Part shown: piece after piece, positions 11,626-27,811 of the stretch
How positions within the stretch are numbered: the first letter of the stretch is position 1
Layout: each line of letters starts with the position of its first letter
Translations under genes and position numbers: made by a program
NCBI GenBank assembly: GCA_949373255.1
Contig: CASICS010000026.1
Span: 1-32,089 of the forward strand
Direction of reading: 5' to 3'
DNA length: 32,089 nt
Source: an uncultured SAR86 cluster bacterium
Lineage (GTDB): Bacteria > Pseudomonadota > Gammaproteobacteria > Magnimaribacterales > AG-339-G14
Notes under the pieces: model-generated
Told to the model about the DNA's origin: nothing
Database searches by the model: none
The model's input: only the letters and a program-made list of their open reading frames with translations

Positions 11626-12900
11626 TTATCTTATTATCTCCTCGTTCATTCCCTTAATTATTGAATCTCCAAATTCAGAACATTTCAAGAGAGTTGCGCC
11701 TTCCATTAATCTATCAAGATCATACGTAACGAGCTTGGATTTAATTGACCAACTTATACCTTTTAAAACTAAATCAGCGGCTTCTTGCCAGCCTATATGT
11801 TCTAGCATCATATGAGCGGAGAGTATCAAAGAAGATGGATTAATTTTATCTTTCCCAGCATATTTAGGAGCCGTTCCATGAGTGGCTTCAAATAAAGCTA
11901 CAGACTCTCCAATATTAGCTCCTGGAGCTAATCCTAATCCGCCAACTTTTGCAGCCAAAGCATCGGAAATAAAGTCTCCATTTAGATTCATAGTAGCAAC
12001 CACATCATAATCGACGGGTCTTATAAGTATTTGCTGGAGAAAATTATCAGTAATTACGTCTTTAATAATTATAGGTCTTCGAGTTTTAGGGTTTCTAATT
12101 CTCATCCAATCGCCACCATCAAGAGAAAGAGCTCCAAACTCTCTTTCCGCTAATTCATAGGCCCATTGTTTGAAAGAGCCCTCGGTATATTTCATAATAT
12201 TTCCTTTGTGCACAATTGATACTGAAGATCGATCGTACTCAATAGCATATTCTATTGCTTTTCTTACAAGTCTTTCGGTTCCTTCTTTTGAAATATTCTT
12301 GACTCCAATTCCACAATTTTCTTCAAAACGTATATTAGTAACTCCCATTTCTGTAGTTAAAAAATTTATAACTTTTTTAGCTTCATCGCTACCAGCTTCA
12401 AATTCAATTCCTGTATAAATATCTTCTGAATTTTCTCTAAAAACAACCATATCTGTTAGTTCAGGTCTCAATACTGGAGTAGGAACCCCATCAAAGTATC
12501 TAATTGGTCGCTGACACAAGAACAAATCTAATTTTTGTCTGAGTGCTACATTTAGAGATCTGATGCCTCCGCCAATTGGAGTTGTTAAAGGTCCTTTTAT
12601 TCCAACTACAAATTCATTTAAAGCAGAAAGAGTTTCATCAGGAAGCCAAGCATCATCTCCGTATACTTTTAAGGATTTCTCACCAGCATAAATTTCCATC
12701 CAATTTATTTTCTTCTTATCTTCGTATGCTTTTCGGACAGCATGATCGATAACTTTGATCATAACTGGAGTAATGTCAGTACCTATTCCATCCCCTTCAA
12801 TGTAAGGAATGATGGGATCACTTGGAACATTCAAAGCACCAGATTCATCGAAGGTAATTCTTGTTCCACTTTCAGGAACTATTATTTTTTTAAATTTCAT
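11626..12900 (-). CDS. icd: NADP-dependent isocitrate dehydrogenase
   Basis: Icd oxidatively decarboxylates isocitrate to 2-oxoglutarate in the TCA cycle. The 424-residue protein is close to the E. coli length (416). The isocitrate-binding helix with the regulatory serine is RSLNVALRQ. The metal-binding aspartates lie in the [12 protein letters not shown] segment, and the NADP-binding region is HGTAPKYAG, whose Lys-Tyr pair matches NADP rather than NAD enzymes. It is the first gene of a leftward unit with clpS and clpA. A TATAAT reads leftwards in the 57-bp gap shared with divergent mnmA. The kinase/phosphatase aceK that controls Icd in E. coli is not in the window. Confidence 0.97.
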
Positions 12901-12957
12901 ATAAAAGATTTAGAATGAGGAAAGGATTATATATTAACATTTTGAAAACTCTAAATT

Positions 12958-14025
12958 ATGTCTAAAAAAGTATTAGTCGGAATCTCAGGTGGAGTTGACT
13001 CATCTGTAGCTGCTGCGTTATTGATTGATCAGGGTTATAAAGTTACGGGCGCATTCATGAAAAATTGGGATGATGACGATGGAACGCCTTACTGTAGTGT
13101 AAAAGAAGATTTCCTTGACGCAGCTTCTGTATGTCAGAAATTAGGAATTGAATTAATTCAACTAAACTTTGCTAAAGAATATAACGAAAATGTATTTAGT
13201 TATTTTCTATCTGGCCTAAAGGAAGGTAAGACTCCTAACCCAGATATATTTTGTAATAAATTTATTAAATTTAAAGAGTTTTTCAATTATGCAATTGAAA
13301 ATAATTTTGATTATATTGCTACAGGTCACTACTGTCAGAGAATAAAAAAAAATGAAGAATTTCTTTTAACTAAAGCAATTGATCAGTCAAAAGATCAAAC
13401 ATATTTCTTGAATGATATTGATAAAAAAGTTCTTTCAAAATGCCTATTTCCAATTGGTGATATTAAAAAAAGTGAAGTAAGGGAAATTGCTAAAAAAAGA
13501 GATTTAATTACTCATAATAAAAAAGATAGCACTGGTATATGTTTTATAGGAGAAAGGCCTTTTCCAGAATTTTTGTCAAATTACCTTCCTTTAACTTCAG
13601 GGAAAATTATAGATGCTGATGATAATATCGTTGGAGAACATAACGGTTTATATTTCTATACCATCGGACAAAGACAAGGACTGGGGATTGGGGGAGTTAA
13701 GGGAACTTCAGAATTACCGTGGTATGTAGCAAAAAAAAATACGGAAGAGAATACTCTTATGGTTGTTCAGGATAATGAACATCCTTTATTGTTTGAGTCC
13801 AAGTTAGAAGTAAACAGTATTAATTGGCTAATAGATCAAAAACCAAATTTGAATAAGTTAACAGCAAAAATAAGATATAGGCAAAAGGATCAAGAGTGTT
13901 CTTTATTAAAAACTGAAAAAAATTGGCAAGTAAATTTTAAGATACCTCAAAGAGCCATCACATCAGGTCAGTCAATAGTTTTTTATAAGGATAATGTCTG
14001 TTTGGGTGGTGGAGAAATTATTTAA
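12958..14025 (+). CDS. mnmA: tRNA-specific 2-thiouridylase MnmA
   Basis: MnmA thiolates uridine 34 of Lys, Glu and Gln tRNAs, using ATP activation and sulfur relayed by Tus proteins. The 355-residue length is normal. The PP-loop is GISGGVDSS (residues 8-16). The two catalytic cysteines lie in NPDIFCNKFIKF (near residue 98) and STGICFIGERPF (near 197). The tRNA-contact segment FYTIGQRQGLGIGG is also present. It opens a rightward series with purB and aceA. In relatives hflD often lies between mnmA and purB; here only 50 bp separates them. Confidence 0.97.
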   Translation: MSKKVLVGISGGVDSSVAAALLIDQGYKVTGAFMKNWDDDDGTPYCSVKEDFLDAASVCQKLGIELIQLNFAKEYNENVFSYFLSGLKEGKTPNPDIFCNKFIKFKEFFNYAIENNFDYIATGHYCQRIKKNEEFLLTKAIDQSKDQTYFLNDIDKKVLSKCLFPIGDIKKSEVREIAKKRDLITHNKKDSTGICFIGERPFPEFLSNYLPLTSGKIIDADDNIVGEHNGLYFYTIGQRQGLGIGGVKGTSELPWYVAKKNTEENTLMVVQDNEHPLLFESKLEVNSINWLIDQKPNLNKLTAKIRYRQKDQECSLLKTEKNWQVNFKIPQRAITSGQSIVFYKDNVCLGGGEII

Positions 14026-14056
14026 ATTATCAAATAATCCATACTATTTTTTAATG

Positions 14057-14062
14057 TATAAT
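14057..14062 (+). promoter_or_regulatory. -10 element in front of purB
   Basis: A perfect TATAAT preceded by TG lies 13 bases before the purB ATG. If used, the transcript would start about 7 nt before the ATG, leaving almost no leader, which fits the absence of a ribosome binding site there. No clear -35 is visible. Confidence 0.4.
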
Positions 14063-14075
14063 CTTTTTTCTTCTA

Positions 14076-15440
14076 ATGCTTAAAGATACACTTAATTCAA
14101 TTTCCCCTCTTGACGGAAGATACCATTCCAAAGTCTATGAATTGGAGAAGTATTTTAGTGAATTTGCCCTTATAAAAAATAGATTTTTAGTAGAAATAAA
14201 ATGGCTTATTTTTATCTCTAAAAACAAAGACCTTCCGTTTGTTAAACCCTTTTCTAAGAAAAATGAAAAAATATTGGAAGATTTAATTGATAATTTTTCG
14301 ATTAAAGATGCTCAAGCTATAAAAAAAATAGAATCTAAAACAAATCATGATGTAAAAGCAGTAGAACTATTTATCTGTCATAAACTTAATGAACACAAGC
14401 TTGAAGAATATAATGAGATGGTTCACTTTTGTTGTACATCTGAGGATATAAATAATCTTGCTTATAGTCTTATGCTTAAAGGGTATCTAGATAATGAGTT
14501 TAAGGACATCAATAAATTACTATTGAAAGATTTAAAGAAAAAATCAAAGAAATGGGCAAAGATATCAATGCTATCTCATACTCATGGGCAAACCGCCTCC
14601 CCAACTACCCTAGGTAAAGAAATAGCAAATTTTCATGAAAGAATTAAATTTCATATTAATATCCTAAATAAGTTTATTCCTTCAGGTAAGTTTAATGGTG
14701 CTGTCGGAAACTATAATGCTCATATCCTAGTTAATGAAAAAGCTAATTGGCAAGGAATTTCTAAAAAGTTTGTTACCTCATTAGGTTTGAGTTGGTCAAA
14801 ATATTCAACTCAAATAGAACAAAAAGATGTAATGGTTACCATAATGTCTGTAGTGGAAAACCTAAATAATGTTTTATTAGATTTATCTAAAGATGCTTGG
14901 CTCTACATATCAAAAGGCTATTTAAAACAATTGGTGGTAGCTGGAGAAGTAGGCTCATCCACTATGCCTCATAAAGTGAATCCCATAGACTATGAAAATG
15001 CCGAAGGAAATCTTGTTTTATCGAATTCGCTGTTAATCGCAATGAAAGAAAAACTTCAGATATCTAGACTGCAAAGAGACCTATCAGATTCAACTACCTT
15101 AAGAAATCTAGGGTCTGGTTTTGCCTATTCGTTCTTGGCTTATAAATCACTTTTAAAAGGTCTATCTAAAATAGAACCCAATAAAAAACTAATCAATCAG
15201 GATCTAAATGATAGCTGGGAAGTATTGGCAGAAGCTGTTCAAACATTAATGAGAAAAAATGGCATTAAAAACAGCTATGACGTCATAAAAAAACTTTCTA
15301 GAGGAAAAGCATTTGATAAAAAAATCTATTTAGATATCATATCGAATTTGGAGCTATGTGAAGAAGATAAAGCTAAACTTTCTAAACTTTCTCCATTAGA
15401 ATATGCTGGCTTAGCCGAGCAGCTTGCGAAGGAAATATAA
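14076..15440 (+). CDS. purB: Adenylosuccinate lyase
   Basis: PurB acts twice in purine synthesis, releasing fumarate from SAICAR and from adenylosuccinate. The 454-residue length matches the proteobacterial long form. Visible landmarks are the N-terminal ISPLDGRY, the TSEDINN segment with substrate contacts, the HTHGQTASPTTLGKE helix with a catalytic histidine, and the fumarase-superfamily signature GSSTMPHKVNPID with the flexible-loop serine. It follows mnmA by 50 bp, with a TATAAT of its own, and precedes aceA by 24 bp. Confidence 0.97.
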   Translation: MLKDTLNSISPLDGRYHSKVYELEKYFSEFALIKNRFLVEIKWLIFISKNKDLPFVKPFSKKNEKILEDLIDNFSIKDAQAIKKIESKTNHDVKAVELFICHKLNEHKLEEYNEMVHFCCTSEDINNLAYSLMLKGYLDNEFKDINKLLLKDLKKKSKKWAKISMLSHTHGQTASPTTLGKEIANFHERIKFHINILNKFIPSGKFNGAVGNYNAHILVNEKANWQGISKKFVTSLGLSWSKYSTQIEQKDVMVTIMSVVENLNNVLLDLSKDAWLYISKGYLKQLVVAGEVGSSTMPHKVNPIDYENAEGNLVLSNSLLIAMKEKLQISRLQRDLSDSTTLRNLGSGFAYSFLAYKSLLKGLSKIEPNKKLINQDLNDSWEVLAEAVQTLMRKNGIKNSYDVIKKLSRGKAFDKKIYLDIISNLELCEEDKAKLSKLSPLEYAGLAEQLAKEI

Positions 15441-17204: not shown

Positions 17205-18047
17205 CTATTCTATCAACTCATTCCATTTAGAGGTACTAGAAGATACTGTTTTTCCTGACTCTCTATAAATAAAATAAGCTGCAATATTATTTTTATTTGC
17301 TAACTGCATCCATTCATTGTTTGGTGTCGCATACAAGGCAGTAGCCCATGCGTCACTAGTAGCCGTAGAAGTTTCATTTAATACCGTTACTGACATTAGT
17401 TTAGTAGCAATTGGTAAATCAGTTAATGGATTCATTATGTGTCCTGGATTTCTATAGTCTCCAGATGTAGCAATAGATAAATTTCTTTTTACGTCAAAGT
17501 ACTTATGAATGGATTTACTTAAAGATGGTTCTATTACTGCAAAATTCCAATTTTTAGTTCCTTTGGAGCCTTCAAATCTTATTTCTCCACCTATTTCTAT
17601 CATAAAATTTGTAATATTTTTTGAATTTAATATTTTTGCCAAATTGTCCACGGCATAGCCTTTTGCTATGGCATTAAGATCATACTGATTGTTAATATAA
17701 ATATTAAAGAAGCCGTTCGATTGATTTTTAATTTTTAAAGACAGATTGATCAGTTTTAAAAATTCATTATTTTCAAACTCAGAAACTTCACCTCTATTAA
17801 CTTTTGATATATATGAGTCGTCAATATAAGTTGAAAAAATTTTGTTAATTCTATTTAATTCATAAGTCAGAGATTTATTTAAATCTTCAAGATCATTCTG
17901 ATTATCCACATACTTTACTTGCCAGGTTGTCCCAAAAATCTCTCCTTGAATGCTTTTTATTTCAGAAGTTGAAGAACATCCAAAAAGAAATAGTAAAATT
18001 AAAGATATCTTTAGAAAGAATTTAAACAACTTAGCCGCCAAAATCAT
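17205..18047 (-). CDS. apbE: FAD:protein FMN transferase ApbE (lipoprotein)
   Basis: ApbE covalently attaches FMN to threonines of NqrB and NqrC in the periplasm. The 280-residue protein has a lipoprotein signal with lipobox LFGC (Cys24), so it should be anchored to the membrane. Family landmarks include FGTTWQVKY, the FAD-contact [11 protein letters not shown], the HIMNP segment (HxxxP-type, metal and pyrophosphate site) and [12 protein letters not shown] with the metal-binding Asp. It is shorter than E. coli ApbE (351), mainly at the ends of loops. It overlaps nqrF by 17 bases and stands four bases before nqrM, the usual place at the end of the nqr operon. Confidence 0.94.
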
Positions 18048-19263
18048 CGAACATAATGTTCTCCGGCTCTACTCCTAAGTCATCAAGCATTTTAAAACAG
18101 GCATCCATCATCATTGGGGGACCGCACATATAGTATTCAGCATCTTCTGGTGAGGAATGATCCTTTAAGTAGTTATCATGCAGAACTTGATGAATAAAGC
18201 CGGTCATTCCCTCCCAATGATCTTCAGGTTGAGGATCAGATAATGCTGCATGCCAAGAAAAATTTTCATGTTCTTCCTGAAGTTTATTGAACTCATCTAC
18301 ATAAAACATTTCTTTAAGACTTCTAGCTCCATACCAAAAAGTTATTTTTCTAGACGAATCTAAGCTTAATAGTTGATCAAAGATATGAGACCTCATCGGA
18401 GCCATACCAGCTCCACCGCCAATAAAGACCATCTCATTACTAGTTTCTTTTGCCATGAACTCTCCAAATGGTCCAAATATAGTTATGGGGTCTCCGGGTT
18501 TAAGATTAAATAAATAAGATGAGGCTTCGCCAGGAGGAAAACTAGATCCCGGAGGTGGTGATGCGATTCTAATATTGAACTTCATTACTCCTTTTTCTTC
18601 AGGATAATTAGCCATCGAGTAAGCTCTGATAACAGGCTCCTTGACTATCGATACATTATCTAAGACTTTAAATTTTTCCCAGTCTTCAATGTAGTCTCCC
18701 TCTATTGTAAAATCTTTATAATCCGCTTCATAAGCGGGTATTTCCATTTGCACATATCCCCCAGCATCAAAGCCCACGGCTTCGCCTTCTGGTAATTTCA
18801 ATACTAATTCCTTGATAAATGTTGCTACATTTTCATTAGATAGAACAGTTGTATCCCATTTCTTCGCTCCAAATACCTCATCAGGAACGGTTATTTTCAT
18901 ATCACTTTTAACTGGTACTTGGCAGGATAAACGCCAGTTATCTTTTTTTTCTCTATTATTGAAATGAGCTTCTTCTGTAGATAAAATTGATCCCCCTCCA
19001 TCATAAACCTGACAACGACATTGAGCGCAAGTTCCACCGCCTCCACAAGCTGAGGATAAGAAAAGATTTTGATCGGCTAATGTTTGTAAAAGCTTTCCCC
19101 CTGCAGGAACTGTGATAGTTTTTTCAGGGTCTCCATTAATTTCAACTGTTACGTCTCCTGTTGAAACCAATCTAGTTCTAGCAAATAGGATTACAAAAAT
19201 CATTAGATTTACTATTAAAGTAAACGCGATTATTCCTAGCGATATTTCTATGAGATCAATCAT
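18031..19263 (-). CDS. nqrF: Na+-NQR subunit F (NADH dehydrogenase, FAD and 2Fe-2S)
   Basis: NqrF takes electrons from NADH through FAD to a 2Fe-2S cluster. The 410-residue protein has one N-terminal membrane helix (about 5-27). The ferredoxin domain binds its cluster with Cys73, Cys79, Cys82 and Cys114. The FAD site contains RAYSMANYP, and the NADH site contains [12 protein letters not shown] and YMCGPPMM. Length and motifs match the Vibrio subunit. Its ATG overlaps the nqrE stop by one base (ATGA/TAATG type junction), and its end overlaps apbE by 17 bases. Confidence 0.98.
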
Positions 19264-19874
19264 TAAAGGCTAATTCCTCCAAAAGACATGAATCCAAAAC
19301 ACATCAGACCCACAGTTATAAATGTAATTCCTAAACCTTCCAAACCATCAGGTATATCACTGTATTTAAGCTTTTCTCTGATTCCTGCCAACATGGCAAT
19401 TGCTAATGCCCAGCCAATTCCTGCACCTAATCCGTAAACTACGCTCTCTCCAAAGGCTAAACTTTTTTCAACCATAAACAAAGAAGCTCCAAGAATTGCA
19501 CAGTTTACAGTGATCAAAGGTAGAAAAATTCCTAATGCGTTATATAAAACTGGTACATATTTATCAAGAAACATTTCAAGTATCTGAACTGTTGCTGCAA
19601 TAACCCCTATGTAACTTATTAAACCTACAAATTCTAAAGATACATCTGGATATCCTAACCAAGATAAAGCACCTTCTCTCAAAATATATGTATAAATTAA
19701 ATTATTTAATGGAACTGTTATTCCGATGATTACTATAACTGCAATCCCCAACCCAATAGCAGCATCAATTTTCTTTGATATAGCAATAAATGTACACATT
19801 CCTAGAAAAACCGACAGAGCTATATTCTCTATAAAAACTGCATTAATAAAAATACTTAGATAGTTTTCAAGCAT
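19263..19874 (-). CDS. nqrE: Na+-NQR subunit E
   Basis: NqrE is a six-helix membrane subunit that pairs with NqrD around a buried Fe centre. The 203-residue protein keeps the cluster cysteines Cys27 ([13 protein letters not shown]) and Cys125 (TVNCAILG). The glycine-rich helix [14 protein letters not shown] is typical of the RnfA/NqrE family. It overlaps nqrD by 8 bases and nqrF by one. RnfA is the close homologue, but the surrounding nqr genes settle the name. Confidence 0.98.
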
Positions 19875-20538
19875 GATCTACCTTTATTTCTTTGGGGGCA
19901 TTTTTGCTCATTTTGAATTCAGAAACTTCTATTTGATCTGTTTTCCAAGATCTCAAAAACCAGATAAATAAACCGATTATTATGAAAGAACTAGGCGGAA
20001 GTAAAAAGAAATTATTGCTTACATACCAACCGCCATCTGAAGCTAAGGGTAATATTTGCTTATCTAATAACTGCCCGCTTCCAATAAGCTCTCTTATTGA
20101 GGCAACAATTATTAAAATAACGCTATAGCCTAATCCGTTTCCTAGTCCATCCAATAAACTCATATATGGTCCATTTTGCATTGCATAGGCCTCTGCTCTT
20201 CCCATGACTATACAGTTTGTAATTATTAAACCTACGAAAACCGATAAAGTCTTACTTGTTTCATAGTCATAGGCTTTTAATAATTGATCCACGATAATCA
20301 CCAATGATGAAATTATTGTCATCTGAACAATGATTCTTATATTACTTGGGGTTATATTTCTTATTAAGGATATAAAAAAGTTAGATAACGTTACTGTGGC
20401 CGTAAGGGCCACACACATAATTAATGTAGGATATAGCTTGCTGGTAACTGCCAAAGCAGAGCATATTCCTAAAACTTGAAGCGCGATTGGATTCTCTTTA
20501 AATATTGGAGAGAATAAAACATCCGAAGATTTAGCCAT
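19867..20538 (-). CDS. nqrD: Na+-NQR subunit D
   Basis: NqrD is the membrane partner of NqrE. The 223-residue protein has six hydrophobic segments and the Fe-centre cysteines Cys26 ([10 protein letters not shown]) and Cys109 ([14 protein letters not shown]). The segment [13 protein letters not shown] is characteristic of RnfE/NqrD. The start overlaps nqrC by 8 bases and the end overlaps nqrE by 8 bases, so all are translated as a coupled set. Confidence 0.98.
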
Positions 20539-21307
20539 TAATTTTTTCCTTTTTTAAATTATCCAAAAAAGGCTTAAACCCATTTTCACCTAACCAATAA
20601 GCTAAAAGATTTGAGACTCCTTTGCTGGTGAGTGTTGCACCAGATAAACCGTCAACTTCATAAGAAGACATATCCATACTATTATCCACCTTTCCCTTTA
20701 TAACTTTAATAAGAATTTTTCCATTTTCGTCATAAATTCTTTTTCCTCTCCACAAAGCCTTCCACTTTGGATTATCTACCTCAGCTCCCAAACCAGGAGT
20801 TTCTTTGTGATCATAAAATTCTAATCCAATAATAGTATTTAAATCATTCGAGATTGCTAAATATCCATACAGAATTCCCCAAAGGCCATAACCTCTAACA
20901 GGCACAATCACTGTGTTTAATTGACCTTCACGGTATTCTAGGAAAACTTTAGAAAAGTTTTCTCGTTTCTTGATGGTTGCTATATCTTCTACTGATGATA
21001 ATTCAATAAACCTATTTGGATCTCTAAGCTCTTTAGACAGATCGTATTTTTCACTGGATTGATTAGTAATAAGCCCTGCTTCTATATCAATAATTTTTTC
21101 TTCTATAGAGGTAAAAGCGTTATTTACTGAACCATAGAATGATTCTAGATCAGCAGCTGCTACTATTTTTTTTTGCTGATCTAAAATAGCATTGTTTTTT
21201 TGTCTTTCCTTAAGACCGACAGCTATGATTGAAATTATTGCAGCACATATCAAGCATAATCCTATCCCTATAAAAATTGTATTTTTTATACTGTCTTTAT
21301 TTTGCAT
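20531..21307 (-). CDS. nqrC: Na+-NQR subunit C (covalent FMN)
   Basis: NqrC is anchored by one N-terminal helix (about residues 10-32) and carries FMN on its periplasmic domain. The attachment motif is DGLSGATLT with the acceptor Thr225, the same number as in the Vibrio protein, and ApbE for this reaction is encoded in the operon. Length is 258 residues, normal for the family. Other conserved pieces are [13 protein letters not shown] and [14 protein letters not shown]. It overlaps nqrB by 11 bases and nqrD by 8. Confidence 0.98.
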
Positions 21308-22517
21308 CTAAAACCTTGATTCTTTCTTTTATATTTCCAGTTACAACATAGTGATCAATCAAGGGTGAGACAAGGTTTGCAAATAATATTGCCAACATCA
21401 TTCCTTCTGGATAAGCAGGATTGAGAACTCTTATCATGATAACCATAAATCCAATGATAAAACCGTAAATCCATCTACCTTTATTAGTGTGCGATCCAGA
21501 AACTGGCTCTGTTGCCATAAATACAAGACCAAACATATAACCACCCATTACCATATGCCACCAAAATGGAACGGCAAACATTGGATTTGTGTCGCTTCCT
21601 GATAAATTAAAAAGGGTAGCTGTAAAAATTGTTCCTATCACTGCACCGGACACTATTCTCCAAGAAGCGATTTTTGTGTAAAGAAGAATAGCTAAACCAA
21701 TTAAAATTGCGACTACAGACGTTTCCCCTATTGAACCAGGAATAAACCCAAAAAAAGCGTCTGTCCATGAATAAGGCATGTTCATATAAGACTCTTGAGC
21801 AGACATTCCCAACATAGTTGCTGCTGTATATCCATCAACTGCAATCCATGACATATCGCCTGACCAAGAGGCAGGATATGCAAAATAAAGAAAAGCTCTT
21901 CCAGTTAATGCAGGATTAAGGAAGTTCTTTCCAGTGCCTCCAAATATTTCCTTTCCAATAACCAAACCTACACTTATGCCCATTGCGACCTGCCATAAAG
22001 GCGCATCTGGTGGACAGGATAAAGCAAATAAGATGGTTGTTACGAAAGCTCCTTCACTAATTTCATGTTTTCTTATTACTGCAAAAATAACTTCCCAAGC
22101 TATTCCAACTATGAAGGTTACTAAATAAATCGGAACGAAATATATTGCGCCATAACTTATACAATCTAGAATACTATTAGGATTTAAGCCGGAAACCATT
22201 TGAATGAAAGGCCAATGCCAGTCTTTTTCAAAAACCTCACCATTTAAGCTGACAATCTCAATAGCCGTTAAAGCTTGGTAACCTAAGTTATACATCCCAA
22301 AAAACATTGCGGGAAAGGCAGATAACCAGACCACAACCATAATTCTTTGGATATCACTTCCATCTCTAATATGAGTTAATCCAGAAGTCTTTCTATCAGA
22401 TGAGTAAAATAAATTTTCGAATACATCAAAAATAGGAAAGTATTTTGATAATTTTCCAGAGCCCTCAAAAGAAGGTTTTATTTTATCCATTAAGTTTCTT
22501 AGTGGATCAGCCATCAA
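21297..22517 (-). CDS. nqrB: Na+-NQR subunit B (covalent FMN, riboflavin, Na+ path)
   Basis: NqrB is the large membrane subunit that carries Na+ and hosts FMN and riboflavin. The 406-residue protein has about ten membrane helices. The FMN attachment motif reads DGYTAATML, with Thr234 as the likely acceptor. Conserved pieces include GKEIFGGTGKNFLNPALTGRAFL and EPVSGSHTNKGRWIYG. Only residues 1-50 before the first helix are soluble. It overlaps nqrA by 4 bases and nqrC by 11. Confidence 0.98.
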   Translation of the reverse strand: MMADPLRNLMDKIKPSFEGSGKLSKYFPIFDVFENLFYSSDRKTSGLTHIRDGSDIQRIMVVVWLSAFPAMFFGMYNLGYQALTAIEIVSLNGEVFEKDWHWPFIQMVSGLNPNSILDCISYGAIYFVPIYLVTFIVGIAWEVIFAVIRKHEISEGAFVTTILFALSCPPDAPLWQVAMGISVGLVIGKEIFGGTGKNFLNPALTGRAFLYFAYPASWSGDMSWIAVDGYTAATMLGMSAQESYMNMPYSWTDAFFGFIPGSIGETSVVAILIGLAILLYTKIASWRIVSGAVIGTIFTATLFNLSGSDTNPMFAVPFWWHMVMGGYMFGLVFMATEPVSGSHTNKGRWIYGFIIGFMVIMIRVLNPAYPEGMMLAILFANLVSPLIDHYVVTGNIKERIKVLDAK

Positions 22518-23866
22518 CCTTCCTCTTCAATTTTTGTGAGCATTTCTCTCAATAAAGATCCGTAATCATATTTACTTGGGCAGGAGTAAGTGCAAAGTGA
22601 TAAATCCTCTTCATCTAATTCAAGGATTCCCAGTTGCTGAGCTAGTTCTGTGTCACCAATTACAATGCTTTTTAAAAGCTGAGTAATCATAATGTTGTAA
22701 GGAAAAATGTCTTCAAATATTCCAATTGGAACAATAGCTCTATCTGCACCATTCATAGCTGTTGTATATTTAAGTTTAAGATATTTTTCTTTAAATTTAG
22801 TTAAAAATAGATTTAAGGATGAATGTTTTAATAGCCCCGGTCTTAAAAAATTTAATAACTCTCTATCACCTTTATTAACTTCTCTCAAAGCAGATACTTG
22901 ATAGTCAAATCTACCTAGATAGTTAACTGATTTTCCTGACTCTTTTCCGCATAAAACAGATCCAGAAATATATCTATTTTCACCCTCTTCTTCTTTACCA
23001 ATGATTATTTCGTCAATACATGCGCCTATCTCAGAATTCAATCTACATGGATTTTTTATTTGAGGGCCGCATAGAGCTATCATTCGTGAGGTGTCTAAGA
23101 TTCCTTTTTTAAATAGTTTTCCTATCATTGCTACATCCTGATATCCAATTGTCCAAACTGGATTTTTTGAACTCACAGGAGAAATATTATGAATTTGCGT
23201 GCCTACCAAACCAACGGGATGTGGCCCCACAAATTGATAATACCGAATCTTATCAGAATCAAGTTGAGTTAAATTAAAATCCATACTAGTTGAAATATGT
23301 ACACAATTTTTAGGAATATGAGATAAAACTTCTAAACCATAGTTAAATTCATCAATATTCTCTTCTAAATAAATTTCAGGGTTAAGGCTAAGAGGATCAG
23401 AGCCAATTAAAGAGATAAATATTTCATTAGGAATGGCATCAATTTTTGGCACCTTACTAAAAGGCCTTGTTTTAAACGATGTCCAACAACCAGAACTCAA
23501 TAAATTTTTTATAATAAAATCTCTGGATAAATTATCATCAGGAATTGAGTCAAAATTTACTTGATCAGAATTTTCTAAATCTTTTTCAATCACCAAAGAT
23601 AAAAAAGCTCTTCTTTCTCCTCTATTAATTTCAATAACTTTTCCGGAAGCAGGAGAGATAAAATTCACTCCAGGATTTTTCTTATCTTCAAATAAAGGCT
23701 GACCTTTGATGACCGTGTCTCCTTCCTTAACCAGCATTGTTGGCTTCAAACCATGATAATCCTCTCCAAGAAGAGCTATTTTTTTTGCATTTACAGTTTC
23801 AATAGATGAAAGATCTATATCACCACTTATAGGAATAGTTAAACCTTTAGAAATTTTAAATTGCAT
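22514..23866 (-). CDS. nqrA: Na+-NQR subunit A
   Basis: NqrA is the cytoplasmic subunit that helps form the ubiquinone site. The 450-residue protein begins MQFKISKGLTIPISG, the normal NqrA start. It includes a biotinyl-like segment (LVKEGDTVIKGQPLFEDK, about 46-63) and ends near TYSCPSKYDYGSLLREML. Upstream the sequence is CCCCCTCTGCCA with no ribosome binding site, so translation may depend on the gap gene 25 bp earlier. Its stop overlaps nqrB by 4 bases (ATGA). Confidence 0.98.
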   Translation of the reverse strand: MQFKISKGLTIPISGDIDLSSIETVNAKKIALLGEDYHGLKPTMLVKEGDTVIKGQPLFEDKKNPGVNFISPASGKVIEINRGERRAFLSLVIEKDLENSDQVNFDSIPDDNLSRDFIIKNLLSSGCWTSFKTRPFSKVPKIDAIPNEIFISLIGSDPLSLNPEIYLEENIDEFNYGLEVLSHIPKNCVHISTSMDFNLTQLDSDKIRYYQFVGPHPVGLVGTQIHNISPVSSKNPVWTIGYQDVAMIGKLFKKGILDTSRMIALCGPQIKNPCRLNSEIGACIDEIIIGKEEEGENRYISGSVLCGKESGKSVNYLGRFDYQVSALREVNKGDRELLNFLRPGLLKHSSLNLFLTKFKEKYLKLKYTTAMNGADRAIVPIGIFEDIFPYNIMITQLLKSIVIGDTELAQQLGILELDEEDLSLCTYSCPSKYDYGSLLREMLTKIEEEG

Positions 23867-23891: not shown

Positions 23892-25376
23892 TTACAAAAA
23901 GTTAGGTAACTTTTTATATTTAATTCCTGACATTTTTTTAATGACTTTTAATAGCTGCGCGCAGTATCCGATTTCGTTGTCATACCAAACATAAACAATT
24001 ACATTTTTATCGTTAACAATAGTAGATTGACCATCTATGACTCCAGCATATCTACTACCAACGAAATCCGAAGAAACATTTTCATTTGAAACAGACAAAT
24101 CTACTTGATCTTTTAAAACACTATGATTTGATGTTTTCCTTAAAAAATTATTGAATTTATCTAAATCTGTAGATTTTTCTATGTAAAGTTTTAAGATAGC
24201 TAACGAGACATTAGGAGTTGGAACTCTTATAGCATTTGCTGTCAACTTGCCTTTAAGATTTGGTAATACCTGAGCGACGGCTTTGGCCGCGCCTGTTTCC
24301 GTGATGACCATATTTAAGGCAGCGGCTCTTCCTCTTCTCGATTTAACGTGAAAATTATCAATTAAATTTTGATCATTCGTATAAGAATGAACTGTCTCAA
24401 CATGTCCATTACTTATCTTGAATTCGTTATCTATAGCAGAAAGCAGAGGAACAATTGCATTAGTTGTGCAAGATGCAGCTCCAATTATAAAATCTTCTTC
24501 ATTAATATCGTCATGGTTAACACCATAAACAATATTTTTTAGACCGCCTTTTACCGGCGCAGTCAAAAGAACCTTTTTAATTTCTTTGTTTTCTAAATGA
24601 ATAGACAAACCTTCTTCGTCAGAAGCTATTCCAGTATTATCTATTAGCAATGCATCTTTGATTCCATATTTTGAGTAATCTATATTTCCTGGATCATTTG
24701 AATTTATAAATTTAATGACATTTCCATTCATGATCAAAGAATTTTCTTCTTCATCAACTCTAATCGTTCCTTTAAATCTTCCATGCACGGAATCTTTTCT
24801 CATTAACTCGGCTCTTTTTAGAAGGTCATTACTTGTTTTTTGTCTAGTAACAACAGCTTTTAATTTAAGAGTTTCGCCGGCACCACTGTCTTCAAGTAAA
24901 AGTCTTGTAATCAATCTTCCAATTCTTCCAAAGCCAAATAAAACTATATCTTGAGATTTATCTAATATCGGGTCATGTTTTCCCAAAACATCTTTTATTT
25001 GATCTTGGACAAATTCATCTATTTCCATGCCTTTATCTTCAAACATATAACCTGCAGCCATAATTCCGATATCAATTTGACAAGGTCCTACATCTAGTTT
25101 GTCTAAAGCAGCTAGCATCATCGAAGACTCGTATTCACTTAGTTCATTACTTTCAACTTCTCTAACTCTTCTATGTAACTGCATTATTTCAATTACTGAA
25201 AGATTCATTAAGGGAGTTCCGTAGAGGAGAATTCGAACGTTATTTCTATGCCATTTTCCAATGATTGGAATCATAGCTTCAGTTAAGGCCTGTCTTTCTA
25301 TCCAGTTCTCTAAATAGTTATCAGGTTTATCTCTAGATCTTTTATCAGGATTTTTATCCGAATCGGTTGGGGTCAT
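23892..25376 (-). CDS. gap: Glyceraldehyde-3-phosphate dehydrogenase, long form with N-terminal extension
   Basis: GAPDH interconverts glyceraldehyde 3-phosphate and 1,3-bisphosphoglycerate. The 494-residue protein is about 160 residues longer than ordinary GAPDH. The catalytic core starts at about residue 142 with the Rossmann motif GFGRIGR (148-154). It has the active-site Cys303 in ASCTTNAIVP, the histidine in HSYTNDQNLID and the closing WYDNEIGYCAQ. The first 140 residues (including NWIERQALTEAM and HRRVREVESNE) form a helical domain found in a Pseudomonas/Vibrio-type GAPDH; its role is not known to me. That type is encoded between mfd and nqrA in Pseudomonas, as it nearly is here. It starts 4 bases after the preceding acyl-CoA dehydrogenase gene. 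Confidence 0.94.
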   Translation of the reverse strand: MTPTDSDKNPDKRSRDKPDNYLENWIERQALTEAMIPIIGKWHRNNVRILLYGTPLMNLSVIEIMQLHRRVREVESNELSEYESSMMLAALDKLDVGPCQIDIGIMAAGYMFEDKGMEIDEFVQDQIKDVLGKHDPILDKSQDIVLFGFGRIGRLITRLLLEDSGAGETLKLKAVVTRQKTSNDLLKRAELMRKDSVHGRFKGTIRVDEEENSLIMNGNVIKFINSNDPGNIDYSKYGIKDALLIDNTGIASDEEGLSIHLENKEIKKVLLTAPVKGGLKNIVYGVNHDDINEEDFIIGAASCTTNAIVPLLSAIDNEFKISNGHVETVHSYTNDQNLIDNFHVKSRRGRAAALNMVITETGAAKAVAQVLPNLKGKLTANAIRVPTPNVSLAILKLYIEKSTDLDKFNNFLRKTSNHSVLKDQVDLSVSNENVSSDFVGSRYAGVIDGQSTIVNDKNVIVYVWYDNEIGYCAQLLKVIKKMSGIKYKKLPNFL

Positions 25377-25380
25377 TTAT

Positions 25381-26508
25381 TTACAAAGATGAATATTTCT
25401 TTAAATGGTAATCAGAATTTCCAAATATAGTTCTTATCGTTGTAAGTCTTTTAAAGTAATGTCCAATACTCATTTCCTCTGTAACTCCCATTCCACCATG
25501 AAGCTGAATAGACTCTTCACCAATTAATTTAGCTGCATTACCTACTTGATATTTCAAAGCAGAAATTGACTTAACCGCATCTTCGGCTTGATCGTTTAAT
25601 TTAGTTGCAGCCATTAACAAAAGAGATTTGGTTTGTTCGTGGACCATAAAACAATCCACCATTCTATGTTGCAGAGCTTGAAATTGACTAAGAGCTTGTC
25701 CGAATTGTTCTCTTGTTTTTGTATACTCTAGAGTTAATTCATTCATTTTTTGCATGATACCTATAGCTTCAGCTGAGATAGCCAATGTTGCTAAGTTCAC
25801 AACATGCTCAATTGATGAAAAAGCATTTCCTTCTTCACCGAGCATTGCATCTTTAGATAAAACTACATTTTCCAAAGTAAGTTCTGAAGCCTTGCTTCCA
25901 TCTATATTTGAATAATCTCTTAAAGAAACTCCTGAAGTGTCTCGGTCAACTATAAAAAGGCTTATACCGGACTTATCTAATTGATTGCCTGAGGTTCTTA
26001 CAGATACGATTAATTTATCCGCGGCAGGACCATTCATTACCACTGATTTGTATCCATTAATCTTAAAATTGTCTCCATCTTCTTCAGCTGAAGTAGTCAC
26101 ATCATTCAAATCAAACCTACTTTGCGGTTCTGCAAAAGCAAATGCTAAATGCATGTCTCCTGAAAATAAATTGGGTAAAATTGCATCTTTTTGATCTTGT
26201 GTCCCAAGGTTACTGATCAAATTGCCAGATAATACGATATTTGGAATATAGGGTTCAACTATTAATCCTGTACCAAAAGCTTCGAGAATAACCATTATGT
26301 CTACTGGTCCGCCGTTATAACCTCCATCTTCTTCAGGAAATGGCATTGCCAATAATCCAAAGGTAGAAAAGGTTTTCCAGAATTCTTTACTGAAGCCGTC
26401 TTCAGATTTGACAAGCTTCTCTCTTACATCAAATGGATAATCCTTTTGAATAAATTGCTGAATCAAATCTTGAAGTTGCTTTTGCTCATCACTAAGTAGA
26501 AAGTCCAT
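25381..26508 (-). CDS. Acyl-CoA dehydrogenase, small non-catalytic-type subunit
   Basis: A 375-residue acyl-CoA dehydrogenase fold: helical N-domain (MDFLLSDEQKQLQDLIQQF), beta middle domain (about 120-225) and helical C-domain with TREQFGQALSQFQALQHRM and QLHGGMGVTEE. The base position used by isovaleryl-type enzymes, glutamate in the partner gene, aligns with Ala240. The C-terminal position used by medium-chain enzymes reads TIFGNSDYH, also without glutamate. That points to a subunit that binds FAD but lacks the catalytic base, working with the neighbour encoded 21 bp upstream. Substrate is unknown; related heteromeric pairs act on steroid side chains and dicarboxyl or branched acyl-CoAs. 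Confidence 0.9.
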   Translation of the reverse strand: MDFLLSDEQKQLQDLIQQFIQKDYPFDVREKLVKSEDGFSKEFWKTFSTFGLLAMPFPEEDGGYNGGPVDIMVILEAFGTGLIVEPYIPNIVLSGNLISNLGTQDQKDAILPNLFSGDMHLAFAFAEPQSRFDLNDVTTSAEEDGDNFKINGYKSVVMNGPAADKLIVSVRTSGNQLDKSGISLFIVDRDTSGVSLRDYSNIDGSKASELTLENVVLSKDAMLGEEGNAFSSIEHVVNLATLAISAEAIGIMQKMNELTLEYTKTREQFGQALSQFQALQHRMVDCFMVHEQTKSLLLMAATKLNDQAEDAVKSISALKYQVGNAAKLIGEESIQLHGGMGVTEEMSIGHYFKRLTTIRTIFGNSDYHLKKYSSL

Positions 26509-26529
26509 ATTATCTCCTTAATAAAAAGA

Positions 26530-27723
26530 TTAGAGGCCTAAAACAGCTTTCGCTATTACGTTTCTTTGCACTTCGTTACTTCCACCATAGATTGATACTT
26601 TTCTATAGTTTAAATAATGAGGCATTACTGTTGCAGCAAAGTCTGGACCTATTCTTTTTTCATTAGATAGAAGATCGCTTTCACTCATAAATGGATGAGC
26701 ATAGTAGCCTAAAGCTTCTACAAAGAGCTCTGATAAGGATTGCTGTATATCAGTTCCACCAATTTTTAAAATAGATGACTCTGGTCCTGGGTGACCTCCA
26801 GCCGACATAGCAGCTAAAGTTCTAAGCTCTGTGTATTCAGCAGATACTAAATCTATTTCTATTTTATTTAGCTTATCCATAAACAAAGAATCGTCTTTTA
26901 AAAAACCTTCGTTCAAAGGAAGTTCTTCAGTTATATCTCTTAATCTTCTGATTTCTCTCTTTAAATGAGGTATACCACCTATTCCAGTTCTTTCGTGAGC
27001 AAGTAAAAATTTAGCTATATTCCATCCAGCACCTTCTTCGCCTATTAAATTTTCGGCAGGCACTTCAACATTATCAAAAAATACACTATTAACTTCATGT
27101 GAACCATCGATTGTAATAATCGGTTGAACTTCTACTCCAGGTGTTTTCATATCTATAAGAAGAAAGCTAATACCCTGCTGCTTAACTCCTGAGGAGTCTG
27201 TTCTGACTAAACAAAAAATCCAGTCCGCATTTTGAGCAAGAGTAGTCCAAGTTTTAGAACCATTCACGATGTATTTGTCGCCTTTTTTTTCTGCTTTAGT
27301 TTTTAAAGATGCTAAATCTGAACCCGATCCAGGCTCTGAATATCCTTGGCACCACCAAACATTATTATCTCTGATGTCAGGCAAAAATTTTTCTTTCTGC
27401 TCTTCATTTCCAAAAGTATAGATTACTGGGCCACACATGCTTACTCCAAAAGGAACAATATTTGGAGTGTTTGCTTCTGCCAGCTCGTTTTGAAAAATAA
27501 ATTTTTGAGTTACTGACCAGCCAGTCCCTCCATGTTCTTCTGGCCAATTAATAGCGAACCAACCTTTTTCACTTAATATTTTTTGCCAAGTGACAATATC
27601 TTCTTTAGTTGTTGGTATTCCTGTATCCATTTTTTCTTTTATATCAGATGGATAATTTTCTTTAATAAAGGATCTAACTTCTTGTTGAAATTTTAAATCT
27701 TCTTCTGAGAATGATAAGTTCAT
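26530..27723 (-). CDS. Acyl-CoA dehydrogenase, large catalytic subunit
   Basis: This flavoenzyme removes two hydrogens from an acyl-CoA. The chosen start at 27723 (MNLSFSEEDLKFQQEV) is preceded by AGAGG at good distance and gives 397 residues; an ATG at 27792 would add 23 residues of no family resemblance. The N-domain carries WFAINWPEEHGGTGWS, and the middle domain has CQGYSEPGSGSDLASL and NGSKTWTT. Glu244 in LLAHERTG sits where isovaleryl-type enzymes keep their catalytic base. The C-terminal YGGSNEVQRN lacks the medium-chain-type glutamate. It is the first gene of an eleven-gene leftward run, with a TATAAT at 27772-27767. It pairs with the next gene, so a heterotetramer is likely. Confidence 0.92.
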   Translation of the reverse strand: MNLSFSEEDLKFQQEVRSFIKENYPSDIKEKMDTGIPTTKEDIVTWQKILSEKGWFAINWPEEHGGTGWSVTQKFIFQNELAEANTPNIVPFGVSMCGPVIYTFGNEEQKEKFLPDIRDNNVWWCQGYSEPGSGSDLASLKTKAEKKGDKYIVNGSKTWTTLAQNADWIFCLVRTDSSGVKQQGISFLLIDMKTPGVEVQPIITIDGSHEVNSVFFDNVEVPAENLIGEEGAGWNIAKFLLAHERTGIGGIPHLKREIRRLRDITEELPLNEGFLKDDSLFMDKLNKIEIDLVSAEYTELRTLAAMSAGGHPGPESSILKIGGTDIQQSLSELFVEALGYYAHPFMSESDLLSNEKRIGPDFAATVMPHYLNYRKVSIYGGSNEVQRNVIAKAVLGL

Positions 27724-27772: not shown

Positions 27773-27811
27773 CACACAGATTTATTCATCAAAAGAAGAA
27801 AAATATCTCAT

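Follow-up and report, generated by a model that had tools for sequence, protein, structure and literature searches.

The stretch of DNA analysed here, referred to as the window, comprises the 32,089 nucleotides of contig CASICS010000026.1 from an uncultured SAR86 cluster bacterium (assembly GCA_949373255.1). It is contig C26 of a source genome of 928 kb that is 77% complete, and loci nearly identical to it were found in SAR86 single cells and metagenome-assembled genomes (MAGs). Its minus strand carries two adjacent acyl-coenzyme A (acyl-CoA) dehydrogenase genes, which probably encode the two subunits of one enzyme:

26530..27723, minus strand: large (putatively catalytic, alpha) subunit, PimC-like acyl-CoA dehydrogenase, 397 amino acids; best NCBIfam match pimC_large (TIGR03204), 507.2 bits
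25381..26508, minus strand: small (putative helper, beta) subunit, PimD-like acyl-CoA dehydrogenase, 375 amino acids; best NCBIfam match pimD_small (TIGR03203), 371.4 bits

All three acyl-CoA dehydrogenase Pfam domains were present in both products. A Shine-Dalgarno-like AGAGG or AAGGAG preceded the ATG of each gene; the large-subunit gene started at the ATG at 27723, with AGAGG upstream, and the longer TTG start at 27792 given in the open reading frame list was unnecessary.

When the two proteins were aligned without gaps from their shared GEEG motif, Glu244 of the large subunit (codon 26994-26992) stood opposite Ala240 of the small subunit (codon 25791-25789), as an earlier note made from the letters of this DNA had stated; both reading frames were found where that note had placed them. 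Conservation was counted in a single alignment of 59 large-subunit rows, 66 small-subunit rows, and 8 single acyl-CoA dehydrogenases; many of the rows come from SAR86 loci that are almost identical, so that the counts are not independent cases. The Glu244 column held Glu in 59/59 large-subunit rows, and the small-subunit rows showed 36 Ala, 14 Gly, 6 Thr, 4 Val, 4 Ser, 1 Asn, and 1 gap, with an acid in 0/65 readable rows; judged by sequence, the small subunit has no alternative acid at that position. The column of the medium-chain acyl-CoA dehydrogenase (MCAD)-type base was Gly in both window proteins (large Gly380, codon 26586-26584; small Gly363, codon 25422-25420), which bears out the earlier statement that neither has the C-terminal glutamate, and it was Gly in 59/59 large and 64/64 readable small rows. 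The eight single acyl-CoA dehydrogenases, used as a control, all carried an acid at one base column or the other (four Glu at the Glu244 column; two Glu and two Asp at the MCAD column). The split of the glutamate between the subunits exceeds chance, with the caveat that 17/66 small-subunit rows, the window's excluded, carried Glu or Asp one column ahead of the base column.

The flavin adenine dinucleotide (FAD) motifs were divided as well. The Arg and Phe of RxxF occurred in 65/65 readable small rows and in 0/59 large rows; the Gln of QxHGG was retained by 61/65 small-subunit but just 1/59 large-subunit rows. The Ser or Thr of EP..(S/T)D was present in 58/58 readable large rows, which also keep the Asp, and in no small row. 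The small subunit of the window retained both of its motifs, as REQFG and QLHGG. An identical split was observed in the solved heteromers ChsE4/ChsE5 (4x28) and Tcur3483/Tcur3481 (6wy8/6wy9), entered here as partial sequences. In a review, these enzymes are described as carrying the Glu in one subunit of each heterodimer and binding one FAD per dimer interface, with two active sites per tetramer (PMC8399759). Because the division of the Glu and of the FAD motifs matches that of the solved alpha2-beta2 enzymes, a half-site alpha2-beta2 heterotetramer is well supported by inference from the sequences, and the half-site signature proposed in the earlier note gains strength from the FAD motifs.

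The pairing of the genes was also conserved. Among 53 loci with a small-subunit gene, the large-subunit gene lay no more than 400 bp upstream in 47, and at 806 and 1889 bp in two others; in the remaining four, the small gene was cut by the contig end in three, and one (L032) showed no large gene in the remaining ~970 bp of its contig. Adjacency was near-constant across SAR86, Alphaproteobacteria, Halieaceae, and Marinobacter. Two loci had unusual gene structures. In the Hyphomonadaceae genome JAD_PAG50586_4 (CP096134.1, L033:2904-7143), a TIR-retron reverse transcriptase (NF042941, 623.8 bits against a cut-off of 600; RVT_1 and TIR_2 domains) separated the large gene from the small one, the three sharing a strand, and in the Pelagibacterales MAG SP299 (L053:6001-7126), the small-subunit gene was split over two frames.

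Single-chain AlphaFold2 models, built with alignments of the window and locus sequences, gave the small subunit a mean predicted local distance difference test (pLDDT) score of 93.5 and the large subunit one of 82.4. In the large model, confidence was low for the EP..SD motif (residues 131-138) and for residues 377-388 and 391-397, segments that coincide with the expected FAD and partner sites, which is suggestive only. Its four best PDB matches by Z score were chains of heteromers, 6wy9_A (35.8; root mean square deviation 2.6 over 350 aligned residues), 6wy8_B (34.2), 8hk0_A (33.9), and 4x28_B (32.6); many homomeric enzymes came within 2 Z of each of these but the first. The small model matched the homomeric short-chain acyl-CoA dehydrogenase (SCAD) best (47.1), with the heteromer beta chains 4x28_C of ChsE5 (44.7) and 6wy8_A (44.5) scoring slightly lower; fold likeness was dropped as a family separator, the small model matching homomers and heteromer beta chains nearly alike.

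These models bear on the alternative that adjacent genes encode two separate homotetramers, of which the small one would be inactive or rely on a different base. That the small subunit alone was modelled confidently as a complete acyl-CoA dehydrogenase fold, with homomeric SCAD as its best match, speaks for it, as do the acids one column before the base column in small subunits of other species. Such a large homotetramer would, however, lack RxxF and QxHGG, and the small one the base and the FAD-site serine; the near-constant adjacency also argues against it. We consider this alternative very improbable, and a homomeric reading of either subunit was rejected, each lacking motifs that its partner has.

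Our preferred reading, to which we assign a probability of about 70%, is that both genes encode one heteromeric acyl-CoA dehydrogenase, most probably an alpha2-beta2 tetramer with two active sites, that would act on PimCD-like rather than sterol substrates. The sequences, the motif split, the conserved pairing, and the gene order are direct observations, and the tetramer, its FAD count, co-transcription, and the substrate are what we infer. The acyl-CoA pocket would lie in the large subunit, which would also bind FAD at its isoalloxazine side and supply Glu244 as the base; this residue would abstract the alpha proton, and the beta hydride would go to FAD. The small subunit no longer has an acid at either base position or a serine in its FAD/substrate motif, but its REQFG and QLHGG segments would help to bind the FAD of its partner from the other side of the dimer interface. 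Electrons would pass to electron transfer flavoprotein (ETF), then to ETF:quinone oxidoreductase (ETF-QO), the genes of which lie within a few kilobases of the pair in related genomes, and so to the quinone pool, which the co-directional Na+-translocating NADH:quinone reductase (Nqr) would also feed. Likely substrates are medium-chain acyl-CoAs, perhaps omega-carboxylated as for PimCD; sterol side chains are unlikely.

The earlier note had named sterol side chains and dicarboxylic or branched acyl-CoAs as possible substrates; from the profiles and the small-subunit tree, a dicarboxylic or straight-chain substrate is more probable than a sterol. Trees were built from 36 large-subunit and 38 small-subunit rows, in which the four steroid references, all partial sequences, formed long branches, and rival groupings were compared by the approximately unbiased (AU) test. 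In the small-subunit tree, the SAR86 locus and annotated PimD shared a clade of 28 rows (support 100/98), and the AU test rejected a grouping of this locus with ChsE5/Tcur3481 (p 0.0003) and with pairs neighbouring KshA (p 0.005). For the large subunit, a PimC-like clade was neither contradicted nor resolved (p 0.533). Lys238 and Arg374 of the large subunit were constant in 49/49 PimC-like rows and non-basic in two steroid references, which offers a lead to candidate dicarboxylate-binding residues. A loop with prolines (Pro-loop) in ChsE4 and in long-chain acyl-CoA dehydrogenase (LCAD) is said to accommodate bulky substrates (PMC11153573); it was rejected as a steroid marker, the two prolines of the window recurring in PimC-like rows from other contexts.

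Several results weigh against the preferred reading. Both window proteins scored below the curated equivalog cut-offs of TIGR03204 (623.85 bits) and TIGR03203 (652.7 bits). No ligase, thiolase, or pimF-type gene, and neither pimA nor pimB, adjoins the pair in the window, where the neighbours are the mfd-like, GAPDH, and nqr genes. The large-subunit AU tests left standing a clade with ChsE4/Tcur3483 (p 0.064) and one with the steroid-neighbour (KshA) pairs (p 0.076). Finally, neither ETF genes nor a PF00725-type 3-hydroxyacyl-CoA dehydrogenase was found in the source genome, at its 77% completeness. The cut-offs are narrow, because PimC and PimD of R. mucosa, from a pimF-pimA-thiolase-pimC-pimD operon, also fall below them (597.8 and 491.8 bits). 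Since the equivalog cut-offs are not reached and the locus has no pim operon, PimCD was rejected as an outright name, and the pair is labelled PimCD-like; a ChsE/FadE26-27-like name was rejected by the small-subunit tree, the large-subunit test standing at p 0.064. The pair is likely PimCD-like rather than steroid-type, judging from the profiles and the small-subunit tree.

The competing view, in which this acyl-CoA dehydrogenase would act on steroids (side chains of sterols or bile acids), draws on the unrejected large-subunit groupings, on the solved relatives of the large subunit, which are steroid enzymes, and on the report of fadE26,27-like genes in SAR86 (PMC11582366). Distant pairs in Halieaceae- and Alteromonadaceae-like MAGs, moreover, have as neighbours a KshA-type oxygenase and a ligase that matched steroid-24-oyl-CoA synthetase best in NCBIfam, below cut-off. 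The Halieaceae-like pairs near KshA and this CasG-like ligase scored 223 bits with the PimC profile for the large subunit, and their small subunits gave no match at E 1e-60. Against this view stand the small-subunit AU rejections and the absence of steroid genes next to the pair, both in the window and in those SAR86 loci that were read; no KshA was found in the source genome, 77% complete as it is. Two further large/small sets in the source genome, on contigs C15 and C16, fall outside the PimD clade of the small-subunit tree and are better candidates for steroid or cyclic substrates. A steroid substrate for the window pair is, on balance, unlikely.

The C15 (L065:8108-10466) and C16 (L066:10653-13009) sets showed the same split of the catalytic Glu. 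The C15 set neighboured a flavin monooxygenase-like gene and a hydratase, and an open reading frame on the C16 contig (L066:19325-19960) resembled proteorhodopsin by eye.

SAR86 was counted among steroid degraders in an earlier survey (PMC4810484), and homologues of fadE26/27 and fadE34 in three of four SAR86 families were proposed in 2024 as steroid genes (PMC11582366). The SAR86 genomes compared belong to families f1 to f4; the source genome belongs to f1, which we infer to be RedeBAC7D11 (AG-339-G14), and f4, a reduced family, is probably CHAB-I-7 (TMED112 in GTDB), both matched through names in PMC11582366. In the available part of that paper, fadE26/27 homologues are not named for CHAB-I-7, yet the window-type pair is present in TMED112-type loci (L043-L050, L061). 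It may therefore be other sets, C15 or C16 for example, that received the published fadE26/27 label.

The surroundings of the pair were as follows:

23892..25376, minus strand: glyceraldehyde-3-phosphate dehydrogenase (GAPDH), long type, 494 amino acids; NF006139, 690.9 bits (cut-off 431)
18031..23866, minus strand: nqrABCDEF, encoding Nqr; nqrA and nqrF exceed their NCBIfam cut-offs
17205..18047, minus strand: ApbE-family protein (flavin transferase), last gene of the same-strand run; PF02424, 166.5 bits
27812..30754, plus strand: mfd-like gene, 980 amino acids, a divergent neighbour outside the enzyme

The names nqrB to nqrE are presumed from position and likeness, nqrA and nqrF alone having been scanned. 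ApbE-family flavin transferases are the usual companions of Nqr. The plus-strand product is presumably mfd-like, judging by its sequence type. The same-strand gaps measured 21 bases between the large and small genes, 4 between the small gene and GAPDH, and 25 between GAPDH and nqrA. Because no terminator-like site was found on the minus strand between 17100 and 28000 (5.1 were expected by chance over both strands), there is weak support for the pair, GAPDH, and nqr forming a single transcript.

Gene order was fixed across SAR86. Long-type GAPDH followed the small subunit in 21/21 SAR86 loci with the small gene and in none of the other loci compared, and the pair lay directly ahead of the GAPDH-nqrABCDEF run in loci of four families. 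Four SAR86 regions (two f1, one f2, and one f3) showed etfQO, etfB, and etfA beyond mfd, then the pair, GAPDH, and nqr; ETF-QO, etfB, and etfA thus lay near the pair in 4/4 regions read from three families, ETF-QO being confirmed by Pfam in one. The window contig ends inside the exonuclease gene that precedes mfd in relatives, about where ETF would be expected, so that the missing ETF of the source genome is probably an assembly gap; ETF was present in 33/40 f1 genomes. In the f2 genome G079 (L124:4669-5840, 12294-14615), the large-subunit gene of the locus was fragmented, and directly next to etfA lay another, diverged large/small set, whose large gene was also in two open reading frames.

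PimD-profile matches at E <=1e-100, counted by hand, occurred in 34/40 f1 and 33/35 f3 genomes, the f3 count mixing paralogues of up to two copies; none in 203 genomes exceeded the curated cut-off. Single f1, f2, and f3 genomes held 12, 10, and 18 acyl-CoA dehydrogenase N-domains, and five f4 genomes held 3, 3, 4, 3, and 3, two of them in each case forming one neighbouring large/small set.

The earlier note had pointed to partner CoA ligases and hydratases as worth seeking, and hydratases, thiolases, and ligases were present in the source genome, together with three single acyl-CoA dehydrogenases in addition to the C15 and C16 sets. One ligase gene on contig C10 (L091:6122-7871) was split over two overlapping frames, either a real break or an assembly error; the best match of its first part was the steroid-24-oyl-CoA synthetase model, far below cut-off. 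Since the source genome lacks a PF00725-type 3-hydroxyacyl-CoA dehydrogenase, a full round of beta-oxidation needs another enzyme. The FadB/FadJ-type 3HCDH domain was found in 123/202 genomes, none of them f1 (G000-G039). Beside a hydratase on C10 (L091:3683-4450), a 255-residue short-chain dehydrogenase/reductase (SDR) matched solved type-II 3-hydroxyacyl-CoA dehydrogenases of the HSD17B10 kind (best E 4e-84), and from this likeness it may perform the third step. HSD17B10-like SDRs occurred in 33/40 f1 genomes, and no f4 genome was among the 146 matches. The available part of PMC11582366 reports the absence of the step-three enzyme only for CHAB-I-7, which fits the present counts if such SDRs were counted there.

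The f4 genomes also matter for a different proposal, that the pair serves chiefly for electron entry or redox balancing and not in lipid beta-oxidation, oxidising a short acyl-CoA from amino-acid or central metabolism under common regulation with GAPDH and Nqr. Consistent with it are the tight same-strand spacing free of terminator-like sites and the retention of the pair in f4, where just three or four acyl-CoA dehydrogenase genes per genome remain (five genomes), no HSD17B10-like match was found, and PF00725 occurred in two genomes (G183 and G198). Its relatives with known phenotypes are, however, dicarboxylate and fatty-acid enzymes, and neighbouring genes may belong to different pathways, which leaves this proposal doubtful next to a PimCD-like dehydrogenase.

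The PimCD-like reading can be extended to a joint one, in which the pair is the core and oldest SAR86 acyl-CoA dehydrogenase, forms one expression unit with GAPDH and Nqr, drains into ETF/ETF-QO, and is kept in f4 with its enoyl-CoA product feeding a non-classical route, the published steroid reading being partly revised; this combination is tentative, with perhaps one chance in four of holding entire. If it were true, the f4 product would have to enter something other than classical beta-oxidation, because f4 seems to be without the usual third-step enzymes, and what has been published on SAR86 as steroid side-chain use would in part have to be reinterpreted as use of dicarboxylic or medium-chain acids. 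A few per cent of the microbes in the surface ocean are SAR86 (PMC11582366), and the diet of these bacteria is inferred from genes alone, so that a steroid as opposed to a dicarboxylic or medium-chain label alters the inference. The fixed genome position of the pair and its likeness to dicarboxylic enzymes are useful clues to that diet. With a universal locus, a clear mechanism, few candidate substrates, and an enzyme of two proteins amenable to production and assay, the pair is a clean test case, and should the steroid label fall for it, similarity-only labels of related pairs would need re-examination.

The half-site alpha2-beta2 design is already known from other systems, to which the window pair adds a SAR86 case. 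PimC-PimD, the pimeloyl-CoA dehydrogenase of Rhodopseudomonas palustris, compared here through the plasmid copies of R. mucosa, shares the large-small order and the motif split, with identities of ~53% (large) and ~41% (small), whereas the window pair adjoins GAPDH-nqr instead of ligase, thiolase, and pimF-type genes. The pim operon of R. palustris is induced by C7-C14 dicarboxylates and a C8 fatty acid (PMC3223731). A Burkholderiales pair, ABZR87_RS14790/RS14795 of Ralstonia CL21, consists of adjacent PimCD-like genes for which its authors suggest a possible heterotetramer and report strong fitness defects on C8-C12 dicarboxylates and weak ones on heptanoate (PMC12543098); it is likened here by description, the sequences at hand being plasmid relatives from Cupriavidus and Paraburkholderia. 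Scd1AB and IpdE1-IpdE2, heteromers of bile-acid and ring degradation, have the same two-gene architecture (PMC8399759), but the IpdE2 profile gave 111 bits with the small subunit of the window, compared to 371 for PimD, and ranked first for no small subunit but that of C15 (173.9 bits against a cut-off of 450). Tcur3481-Tcur3483 of Thermomonospora curvata (6wy8/6wy9), a bile-acid enzyme, has the same architecture and provides the best structural match of the large model, although Tcur3483 groups with ChsE4 in the large-subunit tree (99/98), apart from the window. ChsE4-ChsE5 (FadE26-FadE27) of Mycobacterium tuberculosis (4x28) likewise forms an alpha2-beta2 enzyme with the base Glu in one subunit and FAD shared at the interface (PMC8399759, PMC11153573); the large subunit of the window matched it with 172 bits by phmmer, compared to 507 bits for the PimC profile, and the small subunits belong to different clades.

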